IMG/VR virus record: IMGVR_UViG_3300017963_000698
Coordinates: 1-25,927 of that record
Length of the DNA stretch: 25,927 nucleotides
Reading direction: 5' to 3' (one strand)
Source: a virus
Program-made: the position numbers and the translations under genes
The notes under the pieces: generated by a model
Databases searched by the model: none
Told to the model about the DNA's origin: nothing
What the model saw: only the letters and a program-made list of their open reading frames with translations
Shown here: one piece after another, positions 5,849-25,927 of the stretch
Layout of the letters: every line of letters begins with the position of its first letter
How positions within the stretch are numbered: the first letter of the stretch is position 1

Positions 5849-5870
5849 GCTTGAGCCCTTTCCAAACACA

Positions 5871-5914: not shown

Positions 5915-5931
5915 ATCGGTTTACTCACTTG

Positions 5932-7128
5932 TTATACACCAGTACCAATATTAGTACCCTTTACGAGTGCAGTTACTTCTTCAACCTGACAAGAAACCTT
6001 AGCGTGCATACAGTATTCATTACCACGCTTATAGATGTTTCTATCTTTTTCTAGTGTTAGATCTCTACCGATACCTATAATAAAGTTATCCATATGAGTA
6101 AGAATAACTTGCGGATTTGCTTGATAAGTGATCTTACATACATCACCATCGCCGATCGAACCACCGGCATTACGCGCTATAGTTCCAGCAGTATAATCCA
6201 TATCATAATCAGTACCTTCAGTATATGCTGCTGTAGGTGTAGTAGATAAAGCACTCGGCAGGACGTTCTCGCCGGCAGATACAATTGGATTATATCTTAG
6301 ACTTACAGCGGTAGTTCCACTAAGTGTTACATGCTCAACAACTGTTGGGTTTAGAGCCATCAATGGAACCTCAACAATAGGAATTCCATAAGGTGTTTGA
6401 GTCTCACCGGCGGCGGCACTATCACCACGCGGCGTCATGCGAGTTGCGAATTTTTCAATATAAATCTGCGCCAGATCAGGCGACATAAAGAAACGCAAAT
6501 CCTTTTTGTTTCTGCGAAACTTAGTCGGCATAGCCCTAATCATTGCACCGAATACACTTAGACCAATATTTGTACCGGCATGATCTACAACGTTTCCACT
6601 ATCAGCCAAACGCAACCAACCGTTAAACAGCGCCAAAAAAGCATCCTTAACATACTGAGTAGTAGAACCACCATCAAGGATATCACCTTCAATAGAAGCT
6701 TGTCCAGTTGTATCGCCGTTTATATAAAGTGTCTCAAGATCATTTGCCAACTGCTTTGCAAACATTTTCATGATATGATCTTCAACACTTTCACCTTCTA
6801 TATTCAACTCTTTAAAACCATCTGAAATCTCAAACGGTACAATGATTTCTTTTGGTAGAAGGCTGATCTTTGAAGTAGTTACACCACGCCGATTAGACGG
6901 TGCAACCATTTCAGTCGCCGGTTGTGCGACACGAGTGCCAATACCGATCTTATCAATGTCAAGTTGCTCATTCCTAAACTTAACAACTCTGGCGTTATCT
7001 TTCAGGACGGTTTCTTGAACCAAATAATCTATAAACTTATCCTGTTGTGCGGGGTTAAGCTTGCCGTAGGTAGCTAGAGCATCCGCCGCAGTAATCGCCG
7101 CTTTCTGGGTTAGCTCTTCATTAGTCAT
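5932..7128 (-). CDS. Major capsid protein (HK97-fold type)
   Basis: A 398-residue protein positioned after protease and scaffold genes, the usual place for the major capsid protein. Its N-terminal helix (MTNEELTQKAAITAADALATYGKL) and the following pattern fit HK97-fold shell proteins: an E-loop-like region near 60-90, the helix EDHIMKMFAKQLANDLETLYINGD near 116-139, and a P-domain region with RFFMSPDLAQIYIEKF at 212-227. Residues about 260-337 look like an inserted beta domain (TEGTDYDMDYTAGTI), as seen in some capsid proteins. An AAGGAG site lies about 12 bases before the ATG. The exact family is not named because no search was run. Confidence 0.8.
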   Translation of the reverse strand: MTNEELTQKAAITAADALATYGKLNPAQQDKFIDYLVQETVLKDNARVVKFRNEQLDIDKIGIGTRVAQPATEMVAPSNRRGVTTSKISLLPKEIIVPFEISDGFKELNIEGESVEDHIMKMFAKQLANDLETLYINGDTTGQASIEGDILDGGSTTQYVKDAFLALFNGWLRLADSGNVVDHAGTNIGLSVFGAMIRAMPTKFRRNKKDLRFFMSPDLAQIYIEKFATRMTPRGDSAAAGETQTPYGIPIVEVPLMALNPTVVEHVTLSGTTAVSLRYNPIVSAGENVLPSALSTTPTAAYTEGTDYDMDYTAGTIARNAGGSIGDGDVCKITYQANPQVILTHMDNFIIGIGRDLTLEKDRNIYKRGNEYCMHAKVSCQVEEVTALVKGTNIGTGV

Positions 7129-8070: not shown

Positions 8071-8924
8071 TTTCCTTCTACTGTAGCAATGCCACCAATA
8101 CTAAACCCTGTCAACTCTTTATTCTTTATCTTATTCCATATATTATCATCACTCACATGAACTGTCATCACCCAACTTCCTTTTTTGACATGTTTACCGT
8201 TTATATCATATGAAACAGGTGATATGTAAGATTCAACTAATTCAACACCAATATCACCAAACATATTATGCATAATCCCCAATTTTGTACTCCTATTATA
8301 GTTAGTTAAAAAGTTATGGGCTGTCTTTCTAATAGTTTCCGGCTTTTCCCAATCTTTATGTGCGTCAACCTCGTTAGGTTCTAAAACAATTCCAGTTACT
8401 ATCCTTAATTCTCTACCTTCCGCCTTTACTGTTTCTACCTCGCAGAACTCGAATTCTTTAGTTGGCACATCAATCAGATTACCTTGATCAGAAACCAATA
8501 ACCAACCGTCACCATCTTCTATAAGTCTATGTAATCCTTTGAGTTTTTTCCCTTTAAACATGATCTCTGTAGTACTAATAGAATCACCTGATAGCACCGC
8601 TAAACCTTGATCGATCACATCAATCTCTGATGTAAGTGCCTTGGATACATTTATATAGTGTGCCGGCTTGATATGTTTTGGTAAACTCATAGAGTTTTTA
8701 TGCTTATCAAACTCCTTAATTACCCTAATCGGATTATCACCAATAGGACTTTTTTCGGACTCCAAAACCAATAATGATGGTTCACCTATATCAAGTCTAA
8801 TCATCCAACGTTCATTAGCCAAATTAGAACCTATTTGAACAGGTTCACTCCAATTTTGTCTCTGTAAAACAAACTTTGCATTCGATAAAGAAAATTCACT
8901 TTTTTCAGAAAAACCTTTATTCAC
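8067..8924 (-). CDS. XkdF-like prohead protease with LigD-like N-terminal region
   Basis: A 285-residue protein with a GTG start that overlaps the upstream stop (GTGA). Residues about 170-281 match the XkdF family of phage prohead proteases: GIVLEPNEVDAHKDW, then IRKTAHNFLTNYN, then GIMHN, then ELVESYI, then VKKGSWVMTVHV-DD-IWNKIKNKELTGFSIGG. His219 and Ser275 are candidate catalytic residues, by analogy to herpesvirus-type capsid proteases. The first ~150 residues resemble the LigD phosphoesterase-like modules found beside such proteases (KFVLQRQNW near the start; MFKGKKLKGLHRL---DGWLLV near 122-145). It would cleave scaffold and capsid proteins during head maturation. Confidence 0.75.
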   Translation of the reverse strand: MNKGFSEKSEFSLSNAKFVLQRQNWSEPVQIGSNLANERWMIRLDIGEPSLLVLESEKSPIGDNPIRVIKEFDKHKNSMSLPKHIKPAHYINVSKALTSEIDVIDQGLAVLSGDSISTTEIMFKGKKLKGLHRLIEDGDGWLLVSDQGNLIDVPTKEFEFCEVETVKAEGRELRIVTGIVLEPNEVDAHKDWEKPETIRKTAHNFLTNYNRSTKLGIMHNMFGDIGVELVESYISPVSYDINGKHVKKGSWVMTVHVSDDNIWNKIKNKELTGFSIGGIATVEGK

Positions 8925-11590
8925 ATCAATCTCAACCCTACTAGATTGGATTCTTTTACCAATTCGTTGCGTACTGTTTCAATTTCACCTTCAGATTTTT
9001 CCCAATATTTCAACTCATCTGGTATCTGTTTTCTAATCGCTACAGGTAAAAACGAATAACCTTGCGGCGGTATCCAATGATCCTGAACGGATTGATCACT
9101 CAAAATATATGGCATTTGTTCTTTAGGACGAACAGATATCCATAATTGCTTATCTATAATCCCAGAATTCTTTTTTATAAATACATCTGTACATTCATTA
9201 CACAATTCTATTATATCACCGTCCCATTCTATGAAACTCATTTCACCTTCATTTTTGCATACTAGACATTCTTCTATCCTATCTGTTTTTTCTATTTTTA
9301 TGGCTCTAAAAACTAAACGCCCTTTGAAATTACCGTTCTTTAAAAAATATTCCCGGTAATCACTTTTTTGGACGCCATACTCTACAACACCTTGATCCAC
9401 AATATCAAACACACCAGGATATTGTGGATTACCACCTATAGGCGATGCCTTACCTAATACCGGATCTTTAGTTTTACCTTCGATATCTAGCCAGATATTC
9501 GGACAAACACCTTCATATTTGCTTACAATTTCCACTGGCAAAGAATCATCATCTACCATCCAATTGTTGTTTTTCCAATCCACTTTACTTATATTATCCA
9601 AACACCCTGATAATTTTTTTGCTGTTTCTAATGTAGTTACTGGTTTATCAATATCATATTCCTTTTGTATTTCCATAGTCCAACTAATCAAACTTTTATT
9701 GCATTCTGTTTCTACTCTAAAATCAGAATGCAAACTTTTACCGCACCAATGGTTTTGAACAACATATCTGTATGTACCAGACTCATCAGGGACAATAAGA
9801 TTACTTTCATCACATGACTTTTTTACCGGGTTATAATTCATAACTTCAAGTAAATCACCAGGTTGTATCCCAGTAGAACCGCCGCCGGTAATAAACGTTG
9901 AAAGCTTTCTAACTATCCAACCGCGTTTTTTAAGTTCATTAAACTTCTTTTTAGCTTTCATATCGTAATGAAGAATAAACTTACCTTTTAAACTCTTTAG
10001 TTTTTCTATAAACTTATCTTCATCAAATTCTTTTTCGCCAACACCTTGATCACGTTCTGGGTATGGCGGATCTAAATAAAAGAATGAATCTGGCGCATCA
10101 TACTTATCAAATAATTTTTCATAACTATCATTATGAATCTTTACACCCTTTAATCTTTCTTTAGTAAGCGCTAATCTATCTGGACCTTGGTATCTTTTAT
10201 TTTCAATCGAAGGATCTATACCTCTTATGTTTGTATCTACACGGTAAAAAGATGCAAACCTTTTATATACAAAACGGTAAAACCGTTCTATATCGTTTTT
10301 AGGTTTTAAATAATGTACCTTCTCTAATTGATCTCTTGTGCAAACCCAATTGAGTGATTGTATCTTTTTAATCTGATCTTCAGTTATATCTTGTATAAAC
10401 TTTAAACAAAAAGGTATCTCCGGGTTTATATCGTTCAATACTTCTACTTCACTCCGTTCTTTACGATAAAAAACCGCCGCACCACCGGCAAACGGTTCTA
10501 TATACGTTTTATGTTCTGGCATCATACTTACTACACGTCCGGCGACTCTGGTTTTTCCGGCAGTAGAACCCCACATAGATAATCTTCGTTTACTAACACT
10601 TTCTTTATTTTCCGTTTCACGTTCTAATATCTTACGTGCTTTATTCTGTAAATCTGATATTTGTTTATCAGATAAACCAAATTTGCTTTGTGGTATACGT
10701 GCTATAGCATTCCTCAAGTGTGGCAAATCAACTTTACCTGTAGCATCTTTATAAGGAAAATGCCGTAAACTTCTCGGTGCAGTTTTCCCTTCACCGACCT
10801 TTTTACCACCTGATTCAACATATAAAAAAGCACTATCCGGTAAATCGTTTATATAAGCCCTAGACCATACTGCTTTCTTTACAAAACATTGAAAACCAAA
10901 ATCTTTATCAACCCAATTTTTATTTGAAAACTCCTTTTCAAAATCAGAAGATAAGTCATCTAATCCGTTATCGGGCGGCGCCGGATGTTCCACACCATCT
11001 GAAGATAACTTATCCACAATCAAAGAATGTAGATTAGTTATCTTAATTGTGCTCAACTCGTCGGTGTTATCACCGTACATTTTATGTAGTTTCCAATGTA
11101 CGGCTTCAAGTTGTTCATTATCTAATCCGTCGATATCTATATCTGTAGTAATTTCGATATCTGATTTTTTTATTTCTTCTGTTATTTCTTCTACCTTCTT
11201 TTCAATTTCATTTATAAAACTAACATCGATTGGATTATCAAACTTATCCAACACTTCAACTTGACGATAATACAACACATCTGAATTCCAAGTTGGTTGT
11301 ACCTCTGCCCACTGTTTTCTAGTGTCTTCAGAGATCAAGTGTCTATTTTCTAAACTCTTAAAAGCATCGCCGTTCACAGCAACAGTATCACCTAACTTTA
11401 TTATACCTAAAGCTTTATTTTGACTAACCAAATAACACGTTTCATTTTTTATTTCAATAGGACGTGTTTTAACAAGCAAATCAGATTTGCCGTCTATCAA
11501 TGCCGTTGCTATAAAATGTGGTGAAACAGTGATACTTTCTATAGTAGTAACATCTGCTTCTTTTTGTGGTAATGTGGATACTCTTTTCAT
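8921..11590 (-). CDS. Fusion protein: phage head domain, Dam-type methylase, LigD phosphoesterase-like domain
   Basis: An 889-residue multidomain protein. Residues 1-230 are a phage domain of unknown role (HLISEDTRKQW---LYYRQVEV near 84-113). Residues about 246-325 carry a short motif common beside phage prohead proteases (RHFPYKDATGKVDLPHLRNAIARI). Residues about 339-588 form a complete D12-class adenine-N6 DNA methylase, with AdoMet motif EPFAGGAAVFY at 365-375 and catalytic DPPY at 507-510. Residues about 604-830 resemble the LigD 3'-phosphoesterase (YVVQNHWCGKSLHSDFRVE; His614, His621, Asp623, Arg625) and hold an inserted four-Cys zinc-ribbon-like segment at 776-800. ATGA coupling to the preceding gene and GTGA to the protease suggest equimolar production with head proteins. 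Possible role: DNA modification or repair linked to packaging; this is inference. Confidence 0.7.
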   Translation of the reverse strand: MKRVSTLPQKEADVTTIESITVSPHFIATALIDGKSDLLVKTRPIEIKNETCYLVSQNKALGIIKLGDTVAVNGDAFKSLENRHLISEDTRKQWAEVQPTWNSDVLYYRQVEVLDKFDNPIDVSFINEIEKKVEEITEEIKKSDIEITTDIDIDGLDNEQLEAVHWKLHKMYGDNTDELSTIKITNLHSLIVDKLSSDGVEHPAPPDNGLDDLSSDFEKEFSNKNWVDKDFGFQCFVKKAVWSRAYINDLPDSAFLYVESGGKKVGEGKTAPRSLRHFPYKDATGKVDLPHLRNAIARIPQSKFGLSDKQISDLQNKARKILERETENKESVSKRRLSMWGSTAGKTRVAGRVVSMMPEHKTYIEPFAGGAAVFYRKERSEVEVLNDINPEIPFCLKFIQDITEDQIKKIQSLNWVCTRDQLEKVHYLKPKNDIERFYRFVYKRFASFYRVDTNIRGIDPSIENKRYQGPDRLALTKERLKGVKIHNDSYEKLFDKYDAPDSFFYLDPPYPERDQGVGEKEFDEDKFIEKLKSLKGKFILHYDMKAKKKFNELKKRGWIVRKLSTFITGGGSTGIQPGDLLEVMNYNPVKKSCDESNLIVPDESGTYRYVVQNHWCGKSLHSDFRVETECNKSLISWTMEIQKEYDIDKPVTTLETAKKLSGCLDNISKVDWKNNNWMVDDDSLPVEIVSKYEGVCPNIWLDIEGKTKDPVLGKASPIGGNPQYPGVFDIVDQGVVEYGVQKSDYREYFLKNGNFKGRLVFRAIKIEKTDRIEECLVCKNEGEMSFIEWDGDIIELCNECTDVFIKKNSGIIDKQLWISVRPKEQMPYILSDQSVQDHWIPPQGYSFLPVAIRKQIPDELKYWEKSEGEIETVRNELVKESNLVGLRLM

Positions 11591-15568: not shown

Positions 15569-18172
15569 CTACAACACACCAAAACTTCTACGAGTTCTAT
15601 TGCGTGTTCGCTGTTTAGCTGAACCAACCGCATGGTCTAAAGCATCAAAAAAGTCTCTATGCTTCTCTGATGGAAACAAGATTAGATTCTCTATAGGTTT
15701 AGAATGTACACCCTTTTTAAAATAGAAACGTTTATTCTCAAAAATCGCCGATAGCTTCCACGCCCTTGACATTTTATCTTTATGTACTTGTCTCTTATAT
15801 ATTCTAGCGTTAGGGCGTTTTTCTTTCAACGTTTGTCTTAAAGCATCCTGATATTGATTGGATTCTATACCTACTTTGATAGGGCTCCAACGATCATAAA
15901 ATTCAAATATCTTTTCGGCGTGTTTAGTCGGACGTAAAAAGTCTAAATAGTAATCCAATAAATAACAATAGTAATCATCCTTCTTTATTGATCCTTGAAT
16001 ACCTATAACAGCTATCGCAAACTTATCGTTTATTTCACGTTCTGTAACGTTTAAATCTACACCCATATATATCTTAAGCGTATTAGTCGCCGGATAATCA
16101 TCAATATCAATCTGTTGACAATCATCATATTGAAAAATTTCCCCCTTCATCGCTTCAGTATCACAATTACCTGATATTAAAATTTTCCCGTTACGCCTAG
16201 TTATCAAAGTGGCATTCTTGGTTTTAAAACATACAACATTACCTGAATATGGAACTTCATAAATTTGTTTATTTGGATCAATCCCATTACCTATAGCTTT
16301 ACGTAAACAAACCCTAAACGAATCGCTTCTTTGTACATAAACTTTACCATTTTTATAAATTTTTCTTGTTTTTATTTTAGAAATAGAAGAATCATATCCA
16401 ATCATAAATCCAATTTCCATCACATCGTTTACAAGCTGTTTAGATATTGAAGTGTACTGGTATGAATCACCTTTTTTATATTTTATTATATAACCACCAC
16501 CATCTATCAATGTATCAAAAAGTATTTTTAACTGACGTTTAGATAAGTTAAAAAAAATTCTTGGTATTCTTGCATCATACGAACATGTTTTTACATTTTC
16601 CCTTAACCATCCCCATAACCAAATATGTGAAAAAACTAACCTCACAGTATTTTTATTTTTATATTCTTTAAAATCAATTGACATTGATTTGAGAATATTT
16701 TTCATTGACTTCAGAACAATTCCTTCGTTTTGTGAAAAACTAATCTCCCCACGGGTTTTTTTACTAGTACTACCTTTAGTTACAAAAAAACCTAAAAACT
16801 TCAAAAACATATCCATCTCTACATCTATAGGTCTATGTTTTTCTAAAGAATATTCTTTCCATATACCTATACCATATCGATCTTTTCTCCAACCTTGTTT
16901 TATCTTGAAAATCTTTTTTTCTTTACCATTCCAATCTACACATGAAGGGAATAAAACACGCTTTGTTCTAATGCTAACTTTGGAAGGTAGATTATAAGCG
17001 TCAACAAAATCCCAATCGTCTTTAGATGGATAATCTGCTGGTTTACAAACCATTTGATGATTTGGTGTAACCAAAGCATCAACCTTGTTACTTTTTATGT
17101 GAACCAGATTTCCTTTGTATGATTTGTTAATTTTACGAATTGGCTTTTGATATTGTAGTTTATTGTTTTTGAGATTATACGTTGCAAGCTTGTTATCTTT
17201 GTCTATTTCGTAAAAGTATTTCCAACCTTTATTTGTAAGGAATTCTGTATCTTCTGAATGACATTGGTATTGACTGTTAAAAATAATCAATCCTGATTTC
17301 TTGCGTATATCCTTAAAATATTTCGGTGTAAACTTTTCAGGCCATGGTGAATTTTCGTTATCATCTAAAGCTCTAATTACAAGAGTTTTACCTTTAAGTT
17401 CGTTAGCTTCTAAGTGTCCATACAAATCATCAAAATGATATCTAGTCCCTTCTCTATGATGTTCGCCGCGATGAGGAACGTTTGGATCTGGTGGTTCTAA
17501 TAATGGAAGATATGTTTTATAATACCAAGTCTTGACTTTATCCCTCATTCTAGACGTTCTGGAATTCTCTTCTGTTATCAAGTCATCTGTTATAAGTACA
17601 TCAAAGTGTTTAGATGTAATAGTTGAATCTTCACCAGTACATGTGATCGTCGATTCTGTTGCTGCTGTAGTTCTACCAAGTATACTTATTTCCGTGTTAT
17701 CCCATTTCTCTACATCGCGTGGATCAAAAAATGGTCCGAATATATCAACTAACTTTTTGTTATGCTCAAAATGTGCTTTTATACCACGTAAAAAACCTTC
17801 AGCATTCCCTTTGCTTTTACTACCTAACAATATCCTTAAGTTTCTATTCTTACATAAAAGAAATATAGATCGTGTAATCGTGCAAGACGTTGTTTTACCA
17901 GAACCACGGAACGCAAGGATCAAATTATCAGGATGTAGAAATTGCCATTGCAACATTTTTAAATGAAATGGTTTAACGTCGTAACCAAGAACTTCTTTAG
18001 CTAATATATCTATGCGATTATTCTCTAGAACCTGTCGCCGAATCCATTCGTTCGTCGCTGCCTGTTGCTGTGCTAAAACACCTTCAAGTTGTGAACGTTC
18101 TAATCTATCAAGCTTCTTTGCTACACCACGAATTATAGGTGTTACTTTTTTCTTTTTTACACTTTTCGGCAT
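15569..18172 (-). CDS. terL: Terminase large subunit interrupted by an intein
   Basis: An 867-residue precursor. The two exteins (residues 1-303 and 670-867) join to a 501-residue terminase large subunit, the usual length. The ATPase part has Walker A AFRGSGKTT at 87-95 and a Walker B-like VLITDDLITEEN at 192-203. The nuclease part has acidic residues in MGVDLNV (Asp706), VGIESNQYQ (Glu770) and FFDALDHAVG (Asp843, Asp846). The intein sits in the conserved SQYQ|C segment that links ATPase and nuclease domains. The mature protein translocates DNA through the portal and cuts it at headful or specific sites. Splicing is needed to give an active enzyme. Start ATG MPKSVKKKK; a weak GGAG site lies upstream. 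Confidence 0.9.
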   Translation of the reverse strand: MPKSVKKKKVTPIIRGVAKKLDRLERSQLEGVLAQQQAATNEWIRRQVLENNRIDILAKEVLGYDVKPFHLKMLQWQFLHPDNLILAFRGSGKTTSCTITRSIFLLCKNRNLRILLGSKSKGNAEGFLRGIKAHFEHNKKLVDIFGPFFDPRDVEKWDNTEISILGRTTAATESTITCTGEDSTITSKHFDVLITDDLITEENSRTSRMRDKVKTWYYKTYLPLLEPPDPNVPHRGEHHREGTRYHFDDLYGHLEANELKGKTLVIRALDDNENSPWPEKFTPKYFKDIRKKSGLIIFNSQYQCHSEDTEFLTNKGWKYFYEIDKDNKLATYNLKNNKLQYQKPIRKINKSYKGNLVHIKSNKVDALVTPNHQMVCKPADYPSKDDWDFVDAYNLPSKVSIRTKRVLFPSCVDWNGKEKKIFKIKQGWRKDRYGIGIWKEYSLEKHRPIDVEMDMFLKFLGFFVTKGSTSKKTRGEISFSQNEGIVLKSMKNILKSMSIDFKEYKNKNTVRLVFSHIWLWGWLRENVKTCSYDARIPRIFFNLSKRQLKILFDTLIDGGGYIIKYKKGDSYQYTSISKQLVNDVMEIGFMIGYDSSISKIKTRKIYKNGKVYVQRSDSFRVCLRKAIGNGIDPNKQIYEVPYSGNVVCFKTKNATLITRRNGKILISGNCDTEAMKGEIFQYDDCQQIDIDDYPATNTLKIYMGVDLNVTEREINDKFAIAVIGIQGSIKKDDYYCYLLDYYLDFLRPTKHAEKIFEFYDRWSPIKVGIESNQYQDALRQTLKEKRPNARIYKRQVHKDKMSRAWKLSAIFENKRFYFKKGVHSKPIENLILFPSEKHRDFFDALDHAVGSAKQRTRNRTRRSFGVL
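16166..17263 (-). mobile_element. Intein in terL with decayed LAGLIDADG endonuclease
   Basis: This encodes residues 304-669 of the terminase precursor. It begins with Cys304 (CHSEDTEFLTNKGWKYF, block A), has block B VTPNH at 368-372, and ends RRNGKILISGN followed by Cys670. The penultimate residue is Gly668 instead of the usual His, a variant seen in some inteins. The central part has two LAGLIDADG-like motifs: FLGFFVTKG at 459-467 and FDTLIDGGG at 552-560. At the position of the catalytic acid they carry Lys466 and Gly559, so the endonuclease is probably inactive while splicing may still work. The DNA looks more AT-rich than the exteins. Confidence 0.9.
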
Positions 18173-18190
18173 AGTTTACAAACTCCAAAC

Positions 18191-18229
18191 CGGAGGGCGG
18201 GAGAAGGGAAAGGTAACAACCGCCCTCCG
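18191..18229. other. GC-rich 10-bp hairpin upstream of terL
   Basis: cggagggcgg (18191-18200) pairs perfectly with ccgccctccg (18220-18229) around a 19-base loop. It fills the gap between the 103-residue gene and terL. No T run follows on the minus strand, so it is not a standard terminator. It could mark an mRNA end or limit terL translation. Confidence 0.6.
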
Positions 18230-18246
18230 ATTCAGAAATATATTAT

Positions 18247-18558
18247 CTAATCGAAAACTTCGTAAACAATAGTTTCACCGCTTGCGTTTAGATCTGTGTC
18301 GGCTCCAATGGTAAAACCGTTTGCCAACGGAGTAATACCATTAGAAGTTATAGTTGATATGTCTGTTGTTCCTGAACCGGAATCTACTGTCTTTTGAGCA
18401 CTAGCATCAGCCATTTCACTACACCAAAAAGCTTGACAGTTTCCACCGGTATTATATAGCCTTACTAATCTCGGACGAAACCCTACCTTCGTAACATTTA
18501 TCGCCGATCCAGTTCCAACCACACTACCTACACTTAGTCTATTCATTCCACTTGCCAT
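18247..18558 (-). CDS. Small virion-like protein between terminase subunits
   Basis: A 103-residue beta-rich protein. The pattern KVGFRPRLVRLYN, then FWCSEMADASA, then TSNGITPLANGFTIGADTDLN resembles a small domain I recall from phage structural proteins, in which a Gly-Phe-Arg-Pro-Arg start and a GF-IG-D--LN end recur. It has the strongest ribosome-binding site in the window (AAGGAGGT, 5 bases before ATG), placed in the loop of a 7-bp hairpin, so high expression is expected. It lies between the candidate small terminase and terL, an unusual place for a structural gene. It could be a decoration protein; function unproven. Confidence 0.65.
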   Translation of the reverse strand: MASGMNRLSVGSVVGTGSAINVTKVGFRPRLVRLYNTGGNCQAFWCSEMADASAQKTVDSGSGTTDISTITSNGITPLANGFTIGADTDLNASGETIVYEVFD

Positions 18559-18559
18559 T

Positions 18560-18580
18560 TTTTCACCTCCTTAGTGAAAA
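18560..18580 (-). promoter_or_regulatory. Hairpin presenting a Shine-Dalgarno sequence in its loop
   Basis: On the minus strand TTTTCAC and GTGAAAA form a perfect 7-bp stem around the loop TAAGGAG, one base before the ATG of the 103-residue gene. Most of the Shine-Dalgarno sequence is therefore held exposed in a loop, which could raise or regulate translation. Confidence 0.5.
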
Positions 18581-18645
18581 TACACTCTTGACAATTACCG
18601 AGACAACAAGAACCCGGCAACCTGTCTCAACATGAGACTGGAGTG

Positions 18646-19278
18646 TTAAACTTTTGATCTTACCACTCTCCTACCACCACTATTCTTAGATGGCGGTTTC
18701 CTTTTGGTTTTATTGCCAGTATCTAGTTTAGATATTGGTGCTTTTGGTAACGGTTTATAAATTGGACCAGAATCAATTTGATCTATAGACTGATCCCCAT
18801 AACGTAAATGCATCTCATTAACCGCTTGAATCTCACCCAAGACAAACTGTTTAAGCTCTACATTCGTTAGGTTTACAATAGCTTGTCCAGCTACTAAACG
18901 CCCTGAATCTGAGTTTCTTTCGACTAAACCCAACTCTTGCCCCATCTTTATTATCTTATCTAATATGTCGGATTTTGCCTTTATTGCACCTACATAAGCC
19001 GATTGGTTCTTACTTGTATCATATTCGGCGATTAGATTATCAAGATCTGCTATACATGCCTTCTGTTCGATCATGTACTGAACGTATGTATGTTCAGTGG
19101 TTTTCTCGCGTGTAATCTCAGATTGCTTATCAAAAAATTTGGTTTTTAATATTTCGTAATCTGAAAACTGAATACCAATCTCTTCAGCAATTTCCTCATC
19201 CGTCCAACCCTGGATCAATAAAGAATGTAGCTTTGCATACGCTGATCGTAAAGCTTTACCGCGCAACTGTAATGTCAT
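18646..19278 (-). CDS. Candidate terminase small subunit
   Basis: A 210-residue protein from the ATG at 19278; a TTG three codons earlier is also possible. Residues about 20-48 (LLIQGWTDEEIAEEIGIQFSDYEILKTKF) form a helix-turn-helix-like segment, followed by long helices (TYVQYMIEQKACIADLDNLIAEY, then SAYVGAIKAKSDILDKIIKMGQELGLVE) of the kind used for oligomerisation in small terminases. The C-terminus is basic and disordered (KTKRKPPSKNSGGRR). As first gene of the packaging operon and two genes ahead of terL, it is the best candidate to recognise the viral DNA for packaging. The ribosome-binding site is weak. The call rests on fold pattern and context, not on a family motif. Confidence 0.6.
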   Translation of the reverse strand: MTLQLRGKALRSAYAKLHSLLIQGWTDEEIAEEIGIQFSDYEILKTKFFDKQSEITREKTTEHTYVQYMIEQKACIADLDNLIAEYDTSKNQSAYVGAIKAKSDILDKIIKMGQELGLVERNSDSGRLVAGQAIVNLTNVELKQFVLGEIQAVNEMHLRYGDQSIDQIDSGPIYKPLPKAPISKLDTGNKTKRKPPSKNSGGRRVVRSKV

Positions 19279-19287
19279 ACATATCAA

Positions 19288-19456
19288 ACTAAACGTTGTA
19301 ATCCCTTATGTCCACAACTTTAAACGATTGATATGATTTCGGCGATTAGATATGTAATCAACTGTGGTTTAGATTAGAATGATAAAACACGGCAAAAACT
19401 AGGCTTTTATCAAACTTCTAAACTGTAAATGTAAATAAATACTGTAATATAAGCAC
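19288..19456 (-). promoter_or_regulatory. Intergenic gap between early terminator and late operon; promoter expected
   Basis: This AT-rich gap is the only place between the early terminator and the first packaging gene, so the late promoter should be here, read on the minus strand. I find no convincing sigma70 -35/-10 pair. Imperfect direct repeats are visible on the plus strand at about 19326-19337 and 19344-19358 (GATTGATATGAT and GATTAGATATGTAAT), and taaacg recurs at about 19291 and 19322. These could be activator sites. Confidence 0.3.
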
Positions 19457-19487
19457 AAAAAAAAGTCCTGTAGTTTCCTACAGGACT
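19457..19487 (-). terminator. Intrinsic terminator closing the early module
   Basis: A perfect 10-bp stem, agtcctgtag (19464-19473) with ctacaggact (19478-19487), closes a 4-base loop that reads GAAA on the minus strand. On that strand it is followed by eight T residues (19457-19464 region). It lies 23 bases after the stop of the zinc-finger gene. On the plus strand a shorter CTTTT follows, so weak bidirectional action is possible. Confidence 0.93.
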
Positions 19488-19510
19488 CTTTTAATTATTG
19501 ATGTAAACCG

Positions 19511-20053
19511 TTACTCGACTACATCAAGCTGCTCTGATTCATCTGGCAAACTTCCTTCTATCTCCAAACCTGGAATCATGTTTTTCGGGATCGGTGGCAA
19601 ACTCTCATCACCTTCCTTATTATAGCAAGTCAACACAGTCATCTCTACCAGTTCAGTACTGTCTGAACCATTCACGATCGGCATTGGTCCAACTTTACGA
19701 GCTATAGTCTCAAAACCCAAGTGTTTAAGCTCTGTTGCTCTACGCTTAGCATCAAACGTTTCAGTCTTATAAAACTCTTGTGTGCAAGTTCCCCACGTTA
19801 CAACACCATAACAATCAAGTTTCTGTGGTTCGCCGTTTTTTCTGGCTACCTTCCTCATGAGTTTAGAATTCTCAGACCTGAGATATTCAATCTCACACTT
19901 TACAGAACAGAATTGATCATTGGGATCACTTGGCTCAAATTCCTTAGCACACTGAATACATTGAACGGTATCCATGATCTCTACCTCATCATTATCAATT
20001 ACATCATTGACGTTGATATCTCCAGACTTTTTATTCTTTCCCTTTTTTTTCAT
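19511..20053 (-). CDS. Small zinc-finger protein
   Basis: A 180-residue protein from the ATG at 20053; a longer reading from a TTG at 20068 would overlap the GGAG ribosome-binding site and is rejected. The N-terminus is basic (MKKKGKNKKSG). Residues 32-53 contain Cys-x2-Cys and FCSVKC (Cys32, Cys35, Cys49, Cys53), a zinc-binding knuckle of FCS type, followed by a helix. The middle part (CYGVVTWGTCTQEFYKTETFDAKRRATELKHLGFETIARKV) looks like a small alpha/beta domain, and the tail is acidic. It is the last gene before the early terminator and shares its leader with the DUF932 gene. It may bind nucleic acid; the function is unknown. Confidence 0.65.
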   Translation of the reverse strand: MKKKGKNKKSGDINVNDVIDNDEVEIMDTVQCIQCAKEFEPSDPNDQFCSVKCEIEYLRSENSKLMRKVARKNGEPQKLDCYGVVTWGTCTQEFYKTETFDAKRRATELKHLGFETIARKVGPMPIVNGSDSTELVEMTVLTCYNKEGDESLPPIPKNMIPGLEIEGSLPDESEQLDVVE

Positions 20054-20104
20054 TTTTCTAATCTCCAATTTGTTGTTTATGGTTTTTATGTTATTTGTTT
20101 ATTT

Positions 20105-21232
20105 TTATGCTGCTACTTTACTTAAATATCTGTGTCCAACTTCCTCAAAATTGAGCCTTGAAACGGTGCTCAAGTCTCTACCTGTAGCCGTTACAGCGTT
20201 TGCAATGTCATACGCTGTAACGCTCTTCTCATCAAAAAGTTTACGTGTAGTATTATCAAGTATTGCTTGATCATGCTGTAACGTATCTTTAACTAGTTGA
20301 TTCTGAACCTTTTTTATTTCACCTTTACCAAGTCCAAAACCAGATAGACTTTCGATTTCATCAAGTGCATTATCGATCAATACACTTACTGAATTTTCCC
20401 ATTTTTTAATATCGCCATTAGCTTCTGCCATGGCTACAGGAATCGCATCGCGAATACCGTCCTGTAACTTTCTAGGGTCACCTATATGTCTGAATTTCTT
20501 AGTTGCTTCAGACTTCCACGATCTCATTCCATTTAAGCATACAAGTCTATAAGTGATTGGGGTTATCTGTACCGATCTAAGTCCTAACTCGCTATTTCCG
20601 ATATCAAAACCCCATTCGATAGAATCATTAAGTTTTACCTCAACCGATTCTGTGGGTACTGTAACCCTCATGATCATATGCGGTCCAGTTGCTACCGATC
20701 GAACACTTACTTTATCTATCAAACTTGTCCGATCTAGATATTCTCCAACTTCATCGATCAAGGTAAGATCGTCAATCGGCGCATACCGTTCAGACATAAT
20801 AGACCTAACTTCATTACCAGCTAATCTGAACGTAGTGTTACTACTGTTATGCAATAAACCGAAATTCATGCAAGCCACTTGCAATTTTTGTGGTAGTGCT
20901 CTGATGTAATCCGGTGGTGTTTTCATATCTGTTTTCCCCACTTTTGTTCTTGAGCATAACTGATTAAAAGCATTGTTGCGTAAAATAAGTGGATCTCCTG
21001 TTTCTCTGCCTGGATACGGTATACGTGCTATTGACATATGTTCGCCATCAGTTGTCCCAAACGCCCAACTATTCAATGCCGATGAATATATGTCATCCGC
21101 TTCACCGTCTTTTTCATGAGCACTTCTAACAATCTCTTTAGCTTCTACAAAGCTAATCGGATTATTTGGAAAATTTTTCCAAACTTCCCTCATATCCTGC
21201 TTAGTCTTTAATGGTGTTAAATTTGTTTCCAT
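20105..21232 (-). CDS. DUF932-family phage protein
   Basis: A 375-residue protein matching the DUF932 pattern common in phages and plasmids: SERYAPIDDLTLIDEVGEYLDR near 129-150, then DIGNSELGLRSVQITPITYRLVCLNGM near 210-236, then FRHIGDPRKLQDGIRDAI. The family is close to full length here. Its biochemical role is not established; members sit in early or replication regions. It ends in the helical EVGHRYLSKVAA. The ATG follows an AAAGGAGATTAGAAAA leader shared with neighbours. The coding sequence contains a perfect 11-bp inverted repeat at 20189-20222 and a 9-bp one at 21165-21183. Confidence 0.75.
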   Translation of the reverse strand: METNLTPLKTKQDMREVWKNFPNNPISFVEAKEIVRSAHEKDGEADDIYSSALNSWAFGTTDGEHMSIARIPYPGRETGDPLILRNNAFNQLCSRTKVGKTDMKTPPDYIRALPQKLQVACMNFGLLHNSSNTTFRLAGNEVRSIMSERYAPIDDLTLIDEVGEYLDRTSLIDKVSVRSVATGPHMIMRVTVPTESVEVKLNDSIEWGFDIGNSELGLRSVQITPITYRLVCLNGMRSWKSEATKKFRHIGDPRKLQDGIRDAIPVAMAEANGDIKKWENSVSVLIDNALDEIESLSGFGLGKGEIKKVQNQLVKDTLQHDQAILDNTTRKLFDEKSVTAYDIANAVTATGRDLSTVSRLNFEEVGHRYLSKVAA

Positions 21233-21252
21233 TTTTCTAATCTCCTTTGTGT
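21233..21252 (-). promoter_or_regulatory. Shared translation leader (example upstream of DUF932 gene)
   Basis: The minus strand reads ACACACACAAAGGAGATTAG just before AAAAATG. Near-copies precede the clamp gene (23458-23477) and the 181-residue gene (22483-22501), and the 3' half (GGAGATTAGAAAAATG) is identical before the zinc-finger gene at 20053. It looks like a reused ribosome-binding cassette. Confidence 0.6.
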
Positions 21253-21255
21253 GTG

Positions 21256-21459
21256 TTATTTATCAACCCTATTTTTTAATTCTACATATAAACGCCTTAA
21301 AATAGGTACAGGAATCTTAACTGTAGCTTGATCAGTATCGATCCATCCTGTACTTGCTACATACTTCAACAGATTATCTACATTATCTAAACTACTCCAT
21401 TGTAGTTTAGTACGTTTACCACACTCTGAGCATACAAACCTATAGAATTTATTTTTCAT
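21256..21459 (-). CDS. Small hypothetical protein with CxxC
   Basis: A 67-residue protein. The ATG at 21459 has an AGGA site 9 bases upstream that overlaps the stop of the preceding gene, so I prefer it to earlier in-frame codons inside that gene. It contains FVCSECGKRTKLQW near 8-21, one Cys-x2-Cys knuckle, then a helical stretch and a basic end (RRLYVELKNRVDK). With only one Cys pair visible, a zinc site would need a partner. A 9-bp inverted repeat lies within it at 21387-21410. No family recognised. Confidence 0.6.
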   Translation of the reverse strand: MKNKFYRFVCSECGKRTKLQWSSLDNVDNLLKYVASTGWIDTDQATVKIPVPILRRLYVELKNRVDK

Positions 21460-21469
21460 TTTTACAATC

Positions 21470-21841
21470 CTATATGTATGTTTCAAACGATTCCCAAAAA
21501 TATTTATATGAATTCTCATCAAGCCACTTGCCATCAAGCTTGATCTTGCCTTGATCAACTTCTATCAAAGCCATATCAACTCCAGACCAATGAGATACAA
21601 ATTCTAAAAACAACGGATTATTTGAATGGTGTTCCCTAATAATCCGTTGAATTGTTCGTGTTACAGCATATTCAATAAGAAATCTCGCACCTTTCCTTTT
21701 TAAACAGTATAACTTTTCTTCTATCTCAATCACCTTTGGATATTTTTTATCTGATAACATCCGATAAACATAAAAAGCCGCCATTCTAGCAGGAATCGGC
21801 GCTTTGTTTATCTGTTCTATTATATTTTCTTGTGTTACCAT
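21470..21841 (-). CDS. Small hypothetical early protein
   Basis: A 123-residue, mainly helical protein (NIIEQINKAPIPARMAAFYVYRMLSDKKYP near 5-34). No membrane segment or catalytic motif is seen. ATG start with an AAAGGGAA site about 10 bases upstream. Its stop overlaps the ribosome-binding site of the next small gene, which suggests coupling. I do not recognise the family. Confidence 0.6.
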   Translation of the reverse strand: MVTQENIIEQINKAPIPARMAAFYVYRMLSDKKYPKVIEIEEKLYCLKRKGARFLIEYAVTRTIQRIIREHHSNNPLFLEFVSHWSGVDMALIEVDQGKIKLDGKWLDENSYKYFWESFETYI

Positions 21842-21909
21842 TTTTTTTGATTCCCTTTTTTTCGGATAGCTAATCCGTTTATGCTCATCAGTACAGTCGC
21901 CAACTGTAG

Positions 21910-21930
21910 ACAGTGAGAAAGTCTCACTGT
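21910..21930. other. Intergenic 9-bp hairpin
   Basis: acagtgaga (21910-21918) and tctcactgt (21922-21930) pair perfectly around a 3-base loop, just after the stop of the 181-residue gene. A second, 6-bp hairpin (tacagt/actgta, 21892-21908) lies next to it. There is no T run on the minus strand. Confidence 0.6.
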
Positions 21931-21936
21931 TTCGCT

Positions 21937-22482
21937 TTATGCTGCTTTTACCTTTATTGTTTTTTGGGATGGTACACCCTTGTTGAATGCAAAATAAGTA
22001 GCATTATTTTTAGTAGTTATTCTATCACACTCATTCACGTTCTTCATTGCATAAAGCGCTTTAAGAAATAAATCGGGTTTTCTTGTGTCGTAAATATATT
22101 CATCATACTGCTTATCAGAAAATTTGCAGATCTTTTCAAATAGTTTCATAGATTTTTTTATTTGTAAAAACCTATCTCCCAATTCTGACAATATCAGCGA
22201 TGAATAATCAGTTTCGAATTTTATCCATCTTATATTAAGTTTTGCATCGTAAGAACTATGCATAAAAGATTTATATTTATACCCTTTATCTAATAACTCA
22301 TTCATATCTTGTTTTGCTTTTTTTCTTATATATTCATTATCATAATCACTATTAACTCTATCAAGTCTATCTTGTATCGCTTCATATTCATTTTCGAATA
22401 TATAAATAAAAAAGTTCTCACGTCCATATTGTTCCCCAATCCACTGCTCGAATAGATATGTTTTATATGTTTTCATTTCCAT
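21937..22482 (-). CDS. Hypothetical early protein
   Basis: A 181-residue protein rich in Lys, Asp, Glu and aromatic residues, helical by eye (YEAIQDRLDRVNSDYDNEYIRKKAKQ in the first third). No motif is recognised. The ATG follows AAGGAG by 7 bases within the shared leader. The C-terminus is basic (SQKTIKVKAA). It is in an early cluster of small proteins that often act on host functions, but nothing in the sequence indicates a target. Confidence 0.65.
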   Translation of the reverse strand: MEMKTYKTYLFEQWIGEQYGRENFFIYIFENEYEAIQDRLDRVNSDYDNEYIRKKAKQDMNELLDKGYKYKSFMHSSYDAKLNIRWIKFETDYSSLILSELGDRFLQIKKSMKLFEKICKFSDKQYDEYIYDTRKPDLFLKALYAMKNVNECDRITTKNNATYFAFNKGVPSQKTIKVKAA

Positions 22483-22513
22483 GTTTAATCTCCTTTTTTG
22501 TGTGTTATAGCTT

Positions 22514-22813
22514 TTAACCTCTTGAGATCGACAAATTCAACCCCATTTTACTGGCCGCAGACACGACATAATTGCCGTGCCCTGCCCACTGCTCATAGCC
22601 ATTGTGTAAGGCTATGAGTTCCTCAATCTCCTTGATGTAGCGGTTTACATCATCTATATCATACTTCCCATCCCATTCGATTATGTCGTTCATCGGTGGG
22701 ATATGGGGCAAGTCCAGATCGTCTACATGATCGTACCACGACTGCACTGCATCTATCACTTCGTCGAGAGAGTCATACGTCTCTTGATAGTTATTGTCTG
22801 CTAGTATATACAT
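22514..22813 (-). CDS. Small acidic hypothetical protein
   Basis: A 99-residue, strongly acidic protein (many Asp and Glu, Trp and Tyr), with an AAGGAAC site before the ATG. The sequence (LDEVIDAVQSWYDHVDDLDLPHIP) suggests a small helical domain. Its acidity would fit a DNA-mimic or antirestriction-type protein, but there is no specific motif and I do not claim this. A perfect 9-bp inverted repeat (ctcatagcc/ggctatgag, 22592-22618, 9-base loop) lies within the coding sequence. Confidence 0.6.
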   Translation of the reverse strand: MYILADNNYQETYDSLDEVIDAVQSWYDHVDDLDLPHIPPMNDIIEWDGKYDIDDVNRYIKEIEELIALHNGYEQWAGHGNYVVSAASKMGLNLSISRG

Positions 22814-22834
22814 TTTGTTCCTTTCTTTCTTAAG

Positions 22835-22860
22835 CTTGATTGCCTGACCAGGCCATCAAG
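22835..22860. other. Intergenic hairpin after clamp gene
   Basis: cttgattgcct (22835-22845) pairs with aggccatcaag (22850-22860) at 10 of 11 positions around a 4-base loop. On the minus strand it precedes the ribosome-binding site of the 99-residue gene and lacks a T run, so a processing or regulatory role is more likely than termination. Confidence 0.5.
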
Positions 22861-22902
22861 AAATTGATAGCTAGGTGCGATAATCAAACTTCTGAAGTGT
22901 AT

Positions 22903-23457
22903 TCAAATCTTGATCGGCATAATAACTAGCGTGAGATTGCTTATCGCTCTACAAAGTATCTTGATAGGAGACAAAGCACTATCAGCATAAACGTGGAAAG
23001 AAGGGACTTCTCTACCATTGAACATACTCCTTTTCAATTGAAACGCCTTTATTGCATCCTGTATGAAGAAGGGATTTAGACCACGTTCTTTCACTGGCGT
23101 ATCGTTATATTCTGGCATGACTTCGCGCCATGACGGAATAGATACATCAAGTGCGTCGAATGAAAATCCAAGTACTTTAACTATGGATTCATTCACTTGG
23201 ATTTCAATTTTGTCATCTGGAGATATGTCAATTGCTTTTAAGATCTTCTTTGCATCATCAAGACTAATAGCAAATTCAATATCTTGACCACTGCATGGTG
23301 CACTAAGTACTGATAAGCACTTACCATTTGTGCCAACTATGTTTAATCTCTCATCCTTGCATTCAAAAAAAACACATTCCAAGTATCTATTGCCACCTTT
23401 GGCGAATAGTACGGCTGCATTAATTCCGTTGTAAAGTTCGCCTTTCTCTATTTCCAT
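22903..23457 (-). CDS. Short beta-sliding-clamp-like protein
   Basis: A 184-residue protein resembling parts of the DNA polymerase III beta clamp: NRYLECVFFECKDERLNIVGTNGKCLSVL near 23-51 fits the strand that in clamps reads L--V--e--g--L-l-ATDG-RLa; SIPSWREVMPEY near 105-116 fits the FPDYrrVlP motif; the end TLVIMPIKI fits the clamp C-terminus (vvMPmr). Bacterial clamps are about 370 residues with three domains, so this one is about half length. It could be a reduced phage clamp that forms a higher-order ring, or a clamp-derived regulator. ATG with a strong AAAGGAG site in the shared leader. It follows the helicase gene and fits a replication module. Confidence 0.6.
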   Translation of the reverse strand: MEIEKGELYNGINAAVLFAKGGNRYLECVFFECKDERLNIVGTNGKCLSVLSAPCSGQDIEFAISLDDAKKILKAIDISPDDKIEIQVNESIVKVLGFSFDALDVSIPSWREVMPEYNDTPVKERGLNPFFIQDAIKAFQLKRSMFNGREVPSFHVYADSALSPIKILCRAISNLTLVIMPIKI

Positions 23458-23500
23458 TTCTCTCTCCTTTGTGTGTGTGTTTTCAAGCGTGATAACTTGA

Positions 23501-23532
23501 TGCTAGCCTATATATATTTATATAGGCTAGCA
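23501..23532. other. 14-bp perfect intergenic hairpin after helicase gene
   Basis: tgctagcctatata (23501-23514) pairs perfectly with tatataggctagca (23519-23532) around tatt. It begins 8 bases after the helicase stop and ends before the clamp leader. No T run follows on the minus strand. It may protect or process the mRNA, or act as a binding site. Confidence 0.8.
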
Positions 23533-23540
23533 CTAAGCGA

Positions 23541-25589
23541 TCATACATATAGTTGATCGGCAAATTTACTGATCTGTGTTTTTTTGTATGTACTTAGAAT
23601 CTTAAGAGCCCATGCGCATTGTTTATCAGAATACTCGATACCGTCAAGCGCCCTATCGACTAATGATTGCACAAACTCTGATCTGGCATCCTTGCCATTG
23701 AATCCTATATTATCTTTTTTAACAGCACCGTCGCAGTGTCCAGACAGATAAAGCATAGCTTTAGCAGCTACTTGCTTTATCTCTGAATTCACAGTGTATT
23801 CAAAGGTGCCTTTTTTGTTTCTGATCTGTACTTTTGTATCCTCAACCGGCTTTTTCTCAACCGGCTTTTTCTCAACCGGCTTTTTCTCAACCGGCTTTTT
23901 CTCAACCGGCTTTTCGATTTTGGGACGATTCCGATCAAGCGCTTGATCGGCTATGTTCATTTTATACACCATGGTTTTAATCACATGAGAATCAATAGTG
24001 CCATCGAGTGTAAGATAGACAACATTTACAAATGTAGCTGTTTGCCCGATTCTATGTGCTCTATCCTCAGCTTGCACGCACCACGATGGATTCCAATCAG
24101 CTTCAGCAAAAACAACTGTATTAGCTGCTGTAAGCGTAATACCCATTCCGGCAGCATGTGTTGATAGAATAGCTAATTCGACTTCAGAATCATTCTGAAA
24201 CCGATCAACTAATTCTTGACGCTTATTGATCGGCGTAGATCCATCAATCCTTATAGAATTAGGGAATTGTTTTTCGATCTCATCTAATAAAACTTTATGA
24301 TGAGCGAAAACTATTGCTTTACCTTGTATATTTTCGCTCAAATACTCACATACACCCTTTGCTTTTGCTTGTGCTATTTCAGCCCTTAAAGCTGATATTT
24401 CTTCAAAACTACCAGCACTAGCTATTAATCGATCTATGTCATCAGTCCAGGTTTCCGGCATACTCTGTAAACCAGAATCACTGCACTCTAGATCAACTAC
24501 CGATCTGAGCTTTGGAGGTAGTTCGGTTTCAACGTCTACCTTAAGCCGTCGTACCATACACGACGATCGTAATTTGGCTTGTAATTCGTCAAGGTGGGTA
24601 GCACCATCAAACTGCCAACCCCATCTTGTCTTTTCCGGTGCACAATACCGGAATAAAAACTTCGACTCAGTTTGCCAAGTGCCTTCAGGACCAATCGCGC
24701 CGATCGCTTTTAGAAGGCTGATACTTTCTCTCACCTTATTCTGTATCGGCGTACCTGTTAATAACACGCAACGTGCCACTTTATGGATCAATCCCTCAGT
24801 CTTAAGACGGCCTTTCACCCATGTGCCAAAAAAGAAAGCTGTTCTTTTGGCTTTTGGGTTTTTCAACATATGCGATTCATCAAGAATCGCTAGATTAAAA
24901 TTCATACCAGAAAGTGTTTCTCTGATATGCTTTGCGCGATCACTGCTACCGACCACTTTATCATAGTTGACTATGATCACCCTAGCGGTAGTATCAACTG
25001 CTTTGCCATTGATAACATGGACTGAGATCTCAGAATCCCACCATTTTTGGAACTCACGTTGCCAGTTAACTTTAAGCGTAGCCGGACAAACTACCAAAAT
25101 TTTCTCGGCATCAAGGGATCGCGCAATCCCGATACCTTGCATAGTCTTGCCCAATCCCATTTCATCGGCGATCAACACACCTTTTTTGCCGGATTGAAAA
25201 TTAGACAGTGCGTACTGAATTCCGGCCCTTTGATACGGTCTGTACTCAAGACCAGTAGCACGGGGTATGTCAAGATCGGCGTCTGTAGCCTTTGACAGGT
25301 CTTGAGACCTTGCAAGATCCGTCAATAGACTTGCTACATCTGAACTCAACTCAACTTGATCAGAGCTTGCTAGATCTACTGCAAGCTCTAATTTGTTTTC
25401 ACTGATCCAGCGGGTACGGCGTGGAATACCCGCGTCGTATAGCCTACGTTGCAGATCGGGCGGTGATTTTTCCCATACGAAAAACCAACCCCGTTCCTTT
25501 AACCATTGTGAATCAGAAAAACTAGCATTGGGCGCGTACAATACGCGCCCTAGTTTTTCTACTGTCACTGTCTCGATTCTTATTGTCAC
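23541..25589 (-). CDS. SNF2-family helicase
   Basis: A 682-residue superfamily 2 ATPase of SNF2 type. Motifs in order: YRPYQRAG near 116-123 (Q-like), Walker A DEMGLGKT at 142-149, DESH at 237-240, LLTGTPIQN at 276-284, IVFAHHKVLL at 426-435, GMGITLTAAN at 481-490, and QAEDRAHRIGQT at 506-517. The compact layout resembles SMARCAL1/HARP-like bacterial and phage enzymes that remodel forked or annealed DNA. After the motor come five KPVEK repeats (about 560-583) and a ~90-residue C-terminal domain (GFNGKDARSEFVQSLV, then CAWALKILSTYKK). GTG start, AAAGGAG 7 bases upstream. It probably acts in replication or recombination. The gene contains many long inverted repeats. Confidence 0.9.
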   Translation of the reverse strand: MTIRIETVTVEKLGRVLYAPNASFSDSQWLKERGWFFVWEKSPPDLQRRLYDAGIPRRTRWISENKLELAVDLASSDQVELSSDVASLLTDLARSQDLSKATDADLDIPRATGLEYRPYQRAGIQYALSNFQSGKKGVLIADEMGLGKTMQGIGIARSLDAEKILVVCPATLKVNWQREFQKWWDSEISVHVINGKAVDTTARVIIVNYDKVVGSSDRAKHIRETLSGMNFNLAILDESHMLKNPKAKRTAFFFGTWVKGRLKTEGLIHKVARCVLLTGTPIQNKVRESISLLKAIGAIGPEGTWQTESKFLFRYCAPEKTRWGWQFDGATHLDELQAKLRSSCMVRRLKVDVETELPPKLRSVVDLECSDSGLQSMPETWTDDIDRLIASAGSFEEISALRAEIAQAKAKGVCEYLSENIQGKAIVFAHHKVLLDEIEKQFPNSIRIDGSTPINKRQELVDRFQNDSEVELAILSTHAAGMGITLTAANTVVFAEADWNPSWCVQAEDRAHRIGQTATFVNVVYLTLDGTIDSHVIKTMVYKMNIADQALDRNRPKIEKPVEKKPVEKKPVEKKPVEKKPVEDTKVQIRNKKGTFEYTVNSEIKQVAAKAMLYLSGHCDGAVKKDNIGFNGKDARSEFVQSLVDRALDGIEYSDKQCAWALKILSTYKKTQISKFADQLYV
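23841..23915. repeat. 15-bp tandem repeat, 5 copies, in helicase gene
   Basis: ctcaaccggcttttt repeats from 23841, with four perfect copies and a fifth differing in the last base. It encodes KPVEK pentapeptides linking the helicase motor to its C-terminal domain. Unit length equals that of the EEPKP repeat at the left edge, though the sequence differs. Confidence 0.95.
23931..23950. other. 20-bp perfect palindrome in helicase gene
   Basis: CCGATCAAGCGCTTGATCGG is self-complementary over all 20 bases and lies inside the helicase coding sequence (codons for ADQALDR). Half-site copies (TTGATCGGC) lie at 22910, 23553 and 24226, and an inverted pair CCGATCAA/TTGATCGG flanks 24209-24225. Confidence 0.9.
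25515..25560. other. Long bipartite hairpin in 5' part of helicase gene
   Basis: Outer stem agaaaaacta (25515-25524) with tagtttttct (25551-25560), 10 bp; inner GC-rich stem gggcgcgta (25530-25538) with tacgcgccc (25542-25550), 9 bp, loop of 3; one 5-base bulge. On the minus strand the GC stem is followed by AATGCTAGTTTTTCT, similar to an intrinsic terminator, at about codons 11-26. Confidence 0.8.
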
Positions 25590-25601
25590 TATTTATCTCC
25601 T

Positions 25602-25859
25602 TTAATTTTTGTCTTGAGTGATCGTAAACGTGTCGCAGGACCGGCCATCAGGTCCGATATCGATATCGACGTCTATATGTACGTCCTGATATCCCCTAAT
25701 TTGCCCGCATGTACATGTCGGACTACCACAGAGGTCTCTACATATTTTATAATATGTAGATCGGGACACTGTATGGTGCCGAACGTTAGCTGGGATTTTC
25801 ACGGAACATTTGGTTCCGTGAAAATCGTTTCGTAATATCACATCTACTGTTTTTCTCAT
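25602..25859 (-). CDS. Small Cys-rich hypothetical protein
   Basis: An 85-residue protein with ATG start and AAGGAG 6 bases upstream. Cysteines at 18, 40, 44, 49, 51 and 75 (YYKICRDLCGSPTCTCG) could bind zinc. The C-terminal half is acidic (DVHIDVDIDIGPD). No family is recognised. The stop lies 12 bases before the helicase start, so the two are co-transcribed. The gene is packed with perfect inverted repeats (25655-25668, 25737-25760, 25794-25826), which may constrain its protein sequence. Confidence 0.6.
   Translation of the reverse strand: MRKTVDVILRNDFHGTKCSVKIPANVRHHTVSRSTYYKICRDLCGSPTCTCGQIRGYQDVHIDVDIDIGPDGRSCDTFTITQDKN
25794..25826. other. 14-bp perfect hairpin within small Cys-rich gene
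   Basis: gattttcacggaac (25794-25807) pairs perfectly with gttccgtgaaaatc (25813-25826) around a 5-base loop, covering codons 12-22. A perfect 10-bp hairpin (tctacatatt/aatatgtaga, 25737-25760) and a 14-base palindrome (CGATATCGATATCG, 25655-25668) follow in the same gene. Confidence 0.9.
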
Positions 25860-25860
25860 T

Positions 25861-25927
25861 TTATCTCCTTATCTGGTTATTTGCTGCTATGGCAATATCG
25901 GCCACCCAATGTTTGACCGCTCCGCAA
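25861..25927 (-). CDS. Possible 3' end of an upstream gene (partial)
   Basis: One minus-strand frame is open from the window edge to a TAA at 25861-25863 and would encode 21 residues ending IAIAANNQIRR. The ribosome-binding site of the next gene lies over its end, the arrangement typical of this genome. The fragment is too short to identify. Confidence 0.35.
   Translation of the reverse strand, partial: CGAVKHWVADIAIAANNQIRR

Follow-up and report, generated by a model that had tools for sequence, protein, structure and literature searches.

Close inverted repeats and strong predicted mRNA folding in the probable early module of an uncultivated phage

Background

Why should one gene block of a phage be crowded with perfect close inverted repeats, most of them inside coding sequence? 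It has long been disputed whether selection on mRNA or template-switch mutation gives rise to such repeats, and a genome that combines one extremely outlying module with an average one provides a natural internal control. The window considered here, i.e. the whole stretch of DNA that was analysed, is the 25,927-bp IMG/VR record IMGVR_UViG_3300017963_000698 from an uncultivated virus/phage, whose probable genes all lie on the minus strand. It comprises a structural ("late") block and a block that is probably an early module (Table 1), the label "early" being taken from gene content and position.

Results and Discussion

Density of perfect stems

With a stem defined as a perfect inverted repeat of at least 9 bp with a loop of at most 20, a full scan with an exact finder identified 14 stems in the early region (20105-25927) against 0.63 in dinucleotide shuffles (maximum 3 in 100 shuffles), an excess of about 22-fold. 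The first-pass annotation of this DNA had given a good estimate of the chance expectation (about 0.5), and all 13 stems that it listed, two of them of 14 bp, are exact; it overlooked one (21611-21649, 12 bp). For the late block it had reported a single stem (9699-9733), whereas the full scan found 8 in region 1-20104 against 2.4 in the dinucleotide null, about 3-fold, so the late region also lies above chance. The early/late contrast stands despite this miscount, and neither the shuffled controls nor the late module show the early stem density. Codon-preserving shuffles within genes gave nulls of 1.05 for the early region (maximum 5 in 150 shuffles) and 3.05 for the late one. The stems lie mostly in coding sequence, as had been claimed (12 of 14, the other two being intergenic), and when protein, codon usage and dinucleotides were all kept, 0.8 coding stems were expected against the 12 observed (z 13.8; 0 of 60 shuffles reached 12), i.e. 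an excess of about 15-fold. Codon rarity within stems was not significant (p 0.10), and the codon phase showed no preference (8 of 12 stems in the c1:c3 register, near the shuffle null of 0.58).

Rickettsia-type palindromic elements represent a single element that has inserted into genes in multiple copies. The phage hairpins likewise lie within open reading frames, but all the early stem sequences differ (the loops range from 0 to 20), as the first-pass annotation had maintained, and the stems that could be checked by alignment give no sign of an inserted element; a repeated palindromic element was therefore rejected. Direct repeats are not enriched, with just 2 in the early region, and were rejected as the source of the stems.

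In the early genes perfect stems of 9-12 bp are in excess, while stems with a single mismatch other than G-U are not. Such a preponderance of perfect stems speaks for template-switch (quasi-palindrome) mutation, in which the polymerase briefly copies the nascent or the opposite strand and imperfect inverted repeats become perfect, and recalls the "binary" pattern discussed for the coding palindromes of Nematomorpha mitochondria (PMC6649704). Were this the only cause, such events would be more frequent or better tolerated in the early genes, and the stems would be functionless. The mechanism is an established one (Monttinen and Loytynoja 2022, PMC8794818; Ladoukakis and Eyre-Walker 2008, according to the citing passage in PMC4060949), and an excess of small inverted repeats has been attributed to it, the coding excess reported in these sources being small. 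The phage stems resemble repeats of this origin in being perfect, unrelated in sequence, close-armed and within coding sequence; they differ in the size of the excess, its restriction to one module and its partial phasing to start codons, and no conversion event was demonstrated. At the 20189 stem, the wider DUF932 consensus is matched by the 3' arm as well as by the T-x-Y in the 5' arm, thus there is no sign that either arm was overwritten. We regard template switching alone as possible but on the whole doubtful; it is the main rival explanation, and it may have supplied the perfect stems.

Table 1. Blocks, genes and hairpins of the window
Feature	Coordinates	Strand	Basis or remark
Structural ("late") block	1-20068	-	terminase with LAGLIDADG insert, portal, head protein, capsid, fibre-like genes
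Probable early module, eight genes, small proteins of no named function among their products	20105-25859	-	gene content and position
DUF932-like gene	20105-21232	-	early module
Gene	21256-21459	-	early module
Gene	21470-21841	-	early module
Gene	21937-22482	-	early module
Gene	22514-22813	-	early module
Clamp-like gene	22903-23457	-	weak similarity to DNA polymerase processivity factors
SNF2 helicase gene	23541-25589	-	early module
First early gene	25602-25859	-	early module
14-bp stem, loop 5, +34 to +66 of first early gene, start-phased	25794-25826	-	exact finder
10-bp stem, loop 4, gene 25602-25859	25737-25760	-	exact finder
Start-phased hairpin, SNF2 helicase gene, +30 to +75	25515-25560	-	9-bp inner stem 25530-25550 and 10-bp outer stem, 5-nt bulge
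9-bp stem (12 pairs including one G-U), helicase gene	25362-25389	-	exact finder
10-bp stem, loop 20, helicase gene	24301-24340	-	3' arm codes conserved VFAH, helicase C domain
10-bp perfect palindrome, loop 0, helicase gene	23931-23950	-	exact finder
10-bp stem, loop 17, C-terminal part of helicase gene	23746-23782	-	exact finder
14-bp stem, loop 4, extended pairing, intergenic (helicase/clamp-like)	23501-23532	-	without T run, not an intrinsic terminator
Imperfect two-helix hairpin, start-phased, clamp-like gene, about +16 to +57	23401-23442	-	read from sequence; 40-nt window energy peak there
9-bp stem, loop 9, gene 22514-22813	22592-22618	-	exact finder
9-bp stem, loop 3, intergenic	21910-21930	-	exact finder
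Imperfect hairpin, start-phased, gene 21470-21841, +30 to +79	21763-21812	-	start-aligned folding
12-bp stem, loop 15	21611-21649	-	exact finder; absent from earlier list
9-bp stem, loop 6, +50 to +73 of gene starting at 21459, start-phased	21387-21410	-	exact finder
9-bp stem, loop 1, +50 to +68 of DUF932 gene, start-phased	21165-21183	-	exact finder
11-bp stem, loop 12, near 3' end of DUF932 gene	20189-20222	-	3' arm codes conserved NAVTA

Comparison with other viral DNA

The background comprised 120 random viral loci (1.02 Mb) and loci around SNF2 helicases of other phages. In the random loci close inverted repeats reach 1.75 times the composition estimate, with no single locus above 8.4-fold, against 28-fold for the early block by the same estimate; their coding sequence shows little excess (84 vs 69 expected). 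The SNF2-bearing loci of other phages carry a milder, strand-symmetric coding excess of 2.1-fold (165 vs 77), which is in keeping with template switching, and one of them (L190) reaches 18-fold for the whole locus, intergenic DNA counted. Among 125 coding 5-kb stretches of the SNF2 set the highest count is 8 stems, in L173, followed by 4, while the early block has 10 under the same loop rule. L173 was rejected as a second dense coding stretch because its reading frames are doubtful. In the other viral DNA (about 1.6 Mb) no 5-kb coding stretch is a convincing match to the early block. L173 also has nine perfect stems within 1.5 kb (5562-7090), in what appears to be non-coding or repeat-rich DNA.

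Predicted folding and strand bias

Folding predicted in 60-nt windows was compared with codon-shuffled versions of the genes. The early genes are over-folded on the sense strand (z -10.6) and on the antisense strand (z -8.4), the late genes much less so (-3.2 and -2.4); the early excess persists when dinucleotides are kept as well as protein and codon usage (z -10.9), and also in windows free of perfect stems (sense z -6.4, antisense -4.7). None of the 131 comparison loci is as folded as the early module, which ranks first of 132 with -1.97 kcal per window; the background has a mean of -0.58 (sd 0.38), and the late genes are ordinary (-0.36 kcal per window). Over-folding on both strands is what template switching would produce, but near-average late genes in the same genome are not predicted by it.

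Does the sense strand, i.e. the message, fold more strongly than its complement? Sense-strand G-U stems in the early genes number 14 vs 6.4 expected (1 of 300 shuffles), against 2 vs 3.65 for the antisense type, and among the imperfect stems the G-T type is enriched and the A-C type is not. The control stems with an A-G mismatch are also in excess (15 vs 7.9), and this makes the G-U argument weak. The sense/antisense asymmetry gives a binomial p of 0.016 (among the background stretches, 1 of 111 has a sense bias at 0.02), and the early block ranks 6th of 127 in sense-minus-antisense folding energy. The bias of the early folding toward the sense strand is modest and no more than suggestive.

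Hairpins phased to start codons

When the early genes are aligned at their starts, predicted folding at -15 to +15 is weak, between -0.8 and -1.6 kcal per 40 nt, where AT-rich background genes have -2.1 to -2.6. It then strengthens to -8.8 kcal per 40 nt on average at +45 to +60 (-4.0 in the AT-rich background genes), within an extra strong-folding peak that extends over +26 to +80. A hairpin at about +30 to +75 is found in 6 of the 8 early genes (starts 25859, 25589, 23457, 21841, 21459 and 21232). This phasing is a post hoc finding from eight genes; it gives a p of 0.0008 against random offsets in the same genes, was matched by 0 of 300 codon shuffles, and after offset scanning has a family-wise p of 0.0084 (0.13 for the late genes). 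With an automatic gene picker, the early start peak is the second largest of 136 loci (-4.1 vs a mean of -0.16, sd 1.21). Several early ribosome sites (before 21232, 22482 and 23457) have in common a leader that is rich in A/C and unstructured, e.g. AACACACACAAAGGAGA.

Mutation alone does not predict start phasing, and for that reason selection on the early mRNA is the best single reading: the early messages would have been selected for strong folding within coding sequence, a proposal to which we assign about even chances. Selected mRNA structure, one of the causes envisaged in the first-pass annotation, is favoured by the phasing, by the folding outside perfect stems and by the modest sense bias. 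Against it, the antisense strand is over-folded too, A-G stems are in excess, and the syntenic relative L217 described below has neither a stem in its DUF932 gene nor a clear start peak. The template-switch cause, named in the same annotation, accounts for the perfect stems and for the DUF932 stems not being conserved, but leaves the phasing unexplained.

In the predicted folding, the ribosome-binding site and start codon of each early gene are open, six of the eight genes have a first hairpin just past the initiating ribosome, and further hairpins lie along the gene body. Under selection on early mRNA, the first hairpin would probably pace or space ribosomes departing from the start, and the body hairpins would slow elongation or shield the mRNA from nucleases. 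New stems could still arise by template-switch mutation and then be kept as fitting this selection. Or perhaps the start hairpins form a module-wide cis code, one per early gene, read by a host or phage factor or by the ribosome? This seems quite unlikely; if true, early protein output or message lifetime would be set as a group.

Relatives and the history of the module

No close relatives of the early module emerged from scans with the helicase, DUF932 and clamp proteins, no relative from megablast against phages, and no match from a search of bacterial genomes with a capsid profile. Four contigs have parts of the late block in common with the window. L217 (62% GC) shares the DUF932 gene at 45-47% protein identity together with the late gene order, and the conservation check proposed in the first-pass annotation was run on this one relative, at the DUF932 gene only. 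It is the sole relative sharing the gene, and too distant for covariation. Its DUF932 gene contains no stem, so the stems of the window are not conserved there, a point in favour of template switching. The direction of the early-over-late difference is kept, the early genes of L217 being more folded than the late ones (-0.86 vs -0.19), with no clear start-phased peak. Since the DUF932 gene of L217 is stem-free and its early genes are nevertheless more folded, individual stems are probably labile. Close relatives, if found, would allow a direct test of both causes.

The contrast between the blocks could also be inherited mosaicism, the early block having recombined in from a lineage or host rich in coding close inverted repeats. 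Synonymous codon usage indeed differs between early and late blocks (chi2 128, df 41, p 7e-11; GC3 0.33 vs 0.27), and bacterial genera differ widely in their coding inverted repeats (PMC4060949). However, phages commonly differ in codon usage between early and late genes (PMC5683454), and L217, which carries the same late module, shares the DUF932 gene and the gene order; we consider such a history improbable.

Regulatory sites

The stems might instead be discrete regulatory sites, i.e. terminators, RNase sites or protein operators. In their favour, a terminator scan of 18000-25927 gave 13 sites vs 4.1 expected, and the 14-bp hairpin between the helicase and clamp genes has extended pairing. 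Yet the only clear intrinsic terminator on the coding strand (19459-19492) lies outside the early block, with the upstream genes on one side and the terminase region on the other, and the perfect early stems have no T tracts on the coding strand, i.e. they lack the U run that follows the G+C-rich stem of an intrinsic terminator. Nor did Rfam give a family match. The first-pass annotation's suggestion of protein-binding DNA sites finds no support, as the stems have no common sequence, are mostly intragenic and vary in loop length. Discrete sites are thus a very unlikely explanation of the stems. A strong intergenic hairpin without a T run is present just upstream of the terminase gene region (18191-18229, minus strand), with a counterpart near the equivalent place in the relative L009 (969-1011) whose stem differs in sequence and whose pyrimidine-rich loop (coding strand) is similar.

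Relationship to known systems

Selection on local mRNA folding in coding sequences has been described before (Katz and Burge 2003, as cited in PMC4060949). Across the tree of life, folding is weak at the start codon and strong in the gene body relative to codon-preserving nulls, with an extra strong-folding peak downstream of the start at nucleotides 30-70 (Peeri and Tuller 2020, PMC7063772). The early module shows all three features; it departs from the profile in being stronger than all 131 comparison viral loci, in being confined to one module and in consisting partly of perfect 9-14 bp stems. Its folding is best described as an extreme, module-restricted form of the known profile. Nematomorpha mitochondria carry coding palindromes of up to 284 bp, gained and lost between species (PMC6649704). 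They too are perfect inverted repeats in functional genes, with, as in the phage, arms that partly code for conserved residues, but the longest perfect stem of the phage is 14 bp and its G-U stems are enriched as well.

Other features of the window

The large subunit of the terminase (15569-18172) is split by a LAGLIDADG insert, probably an intein, which is apparently absent from the relatives L003 and L217. Segments of an 889-aa protein (8921-11590), one of which resembles a DNA methyltransferase, are reordered in L003 (5327-8035), as if shuffled. Two repeat tracts lie in coding sequence: PKPEE proline/glutamate-rich repeats at 1-204, and KKPVE lysine/proline-rich repeats at about 23840-23915, the latter being nearly the sole close direct repeat of the early block.
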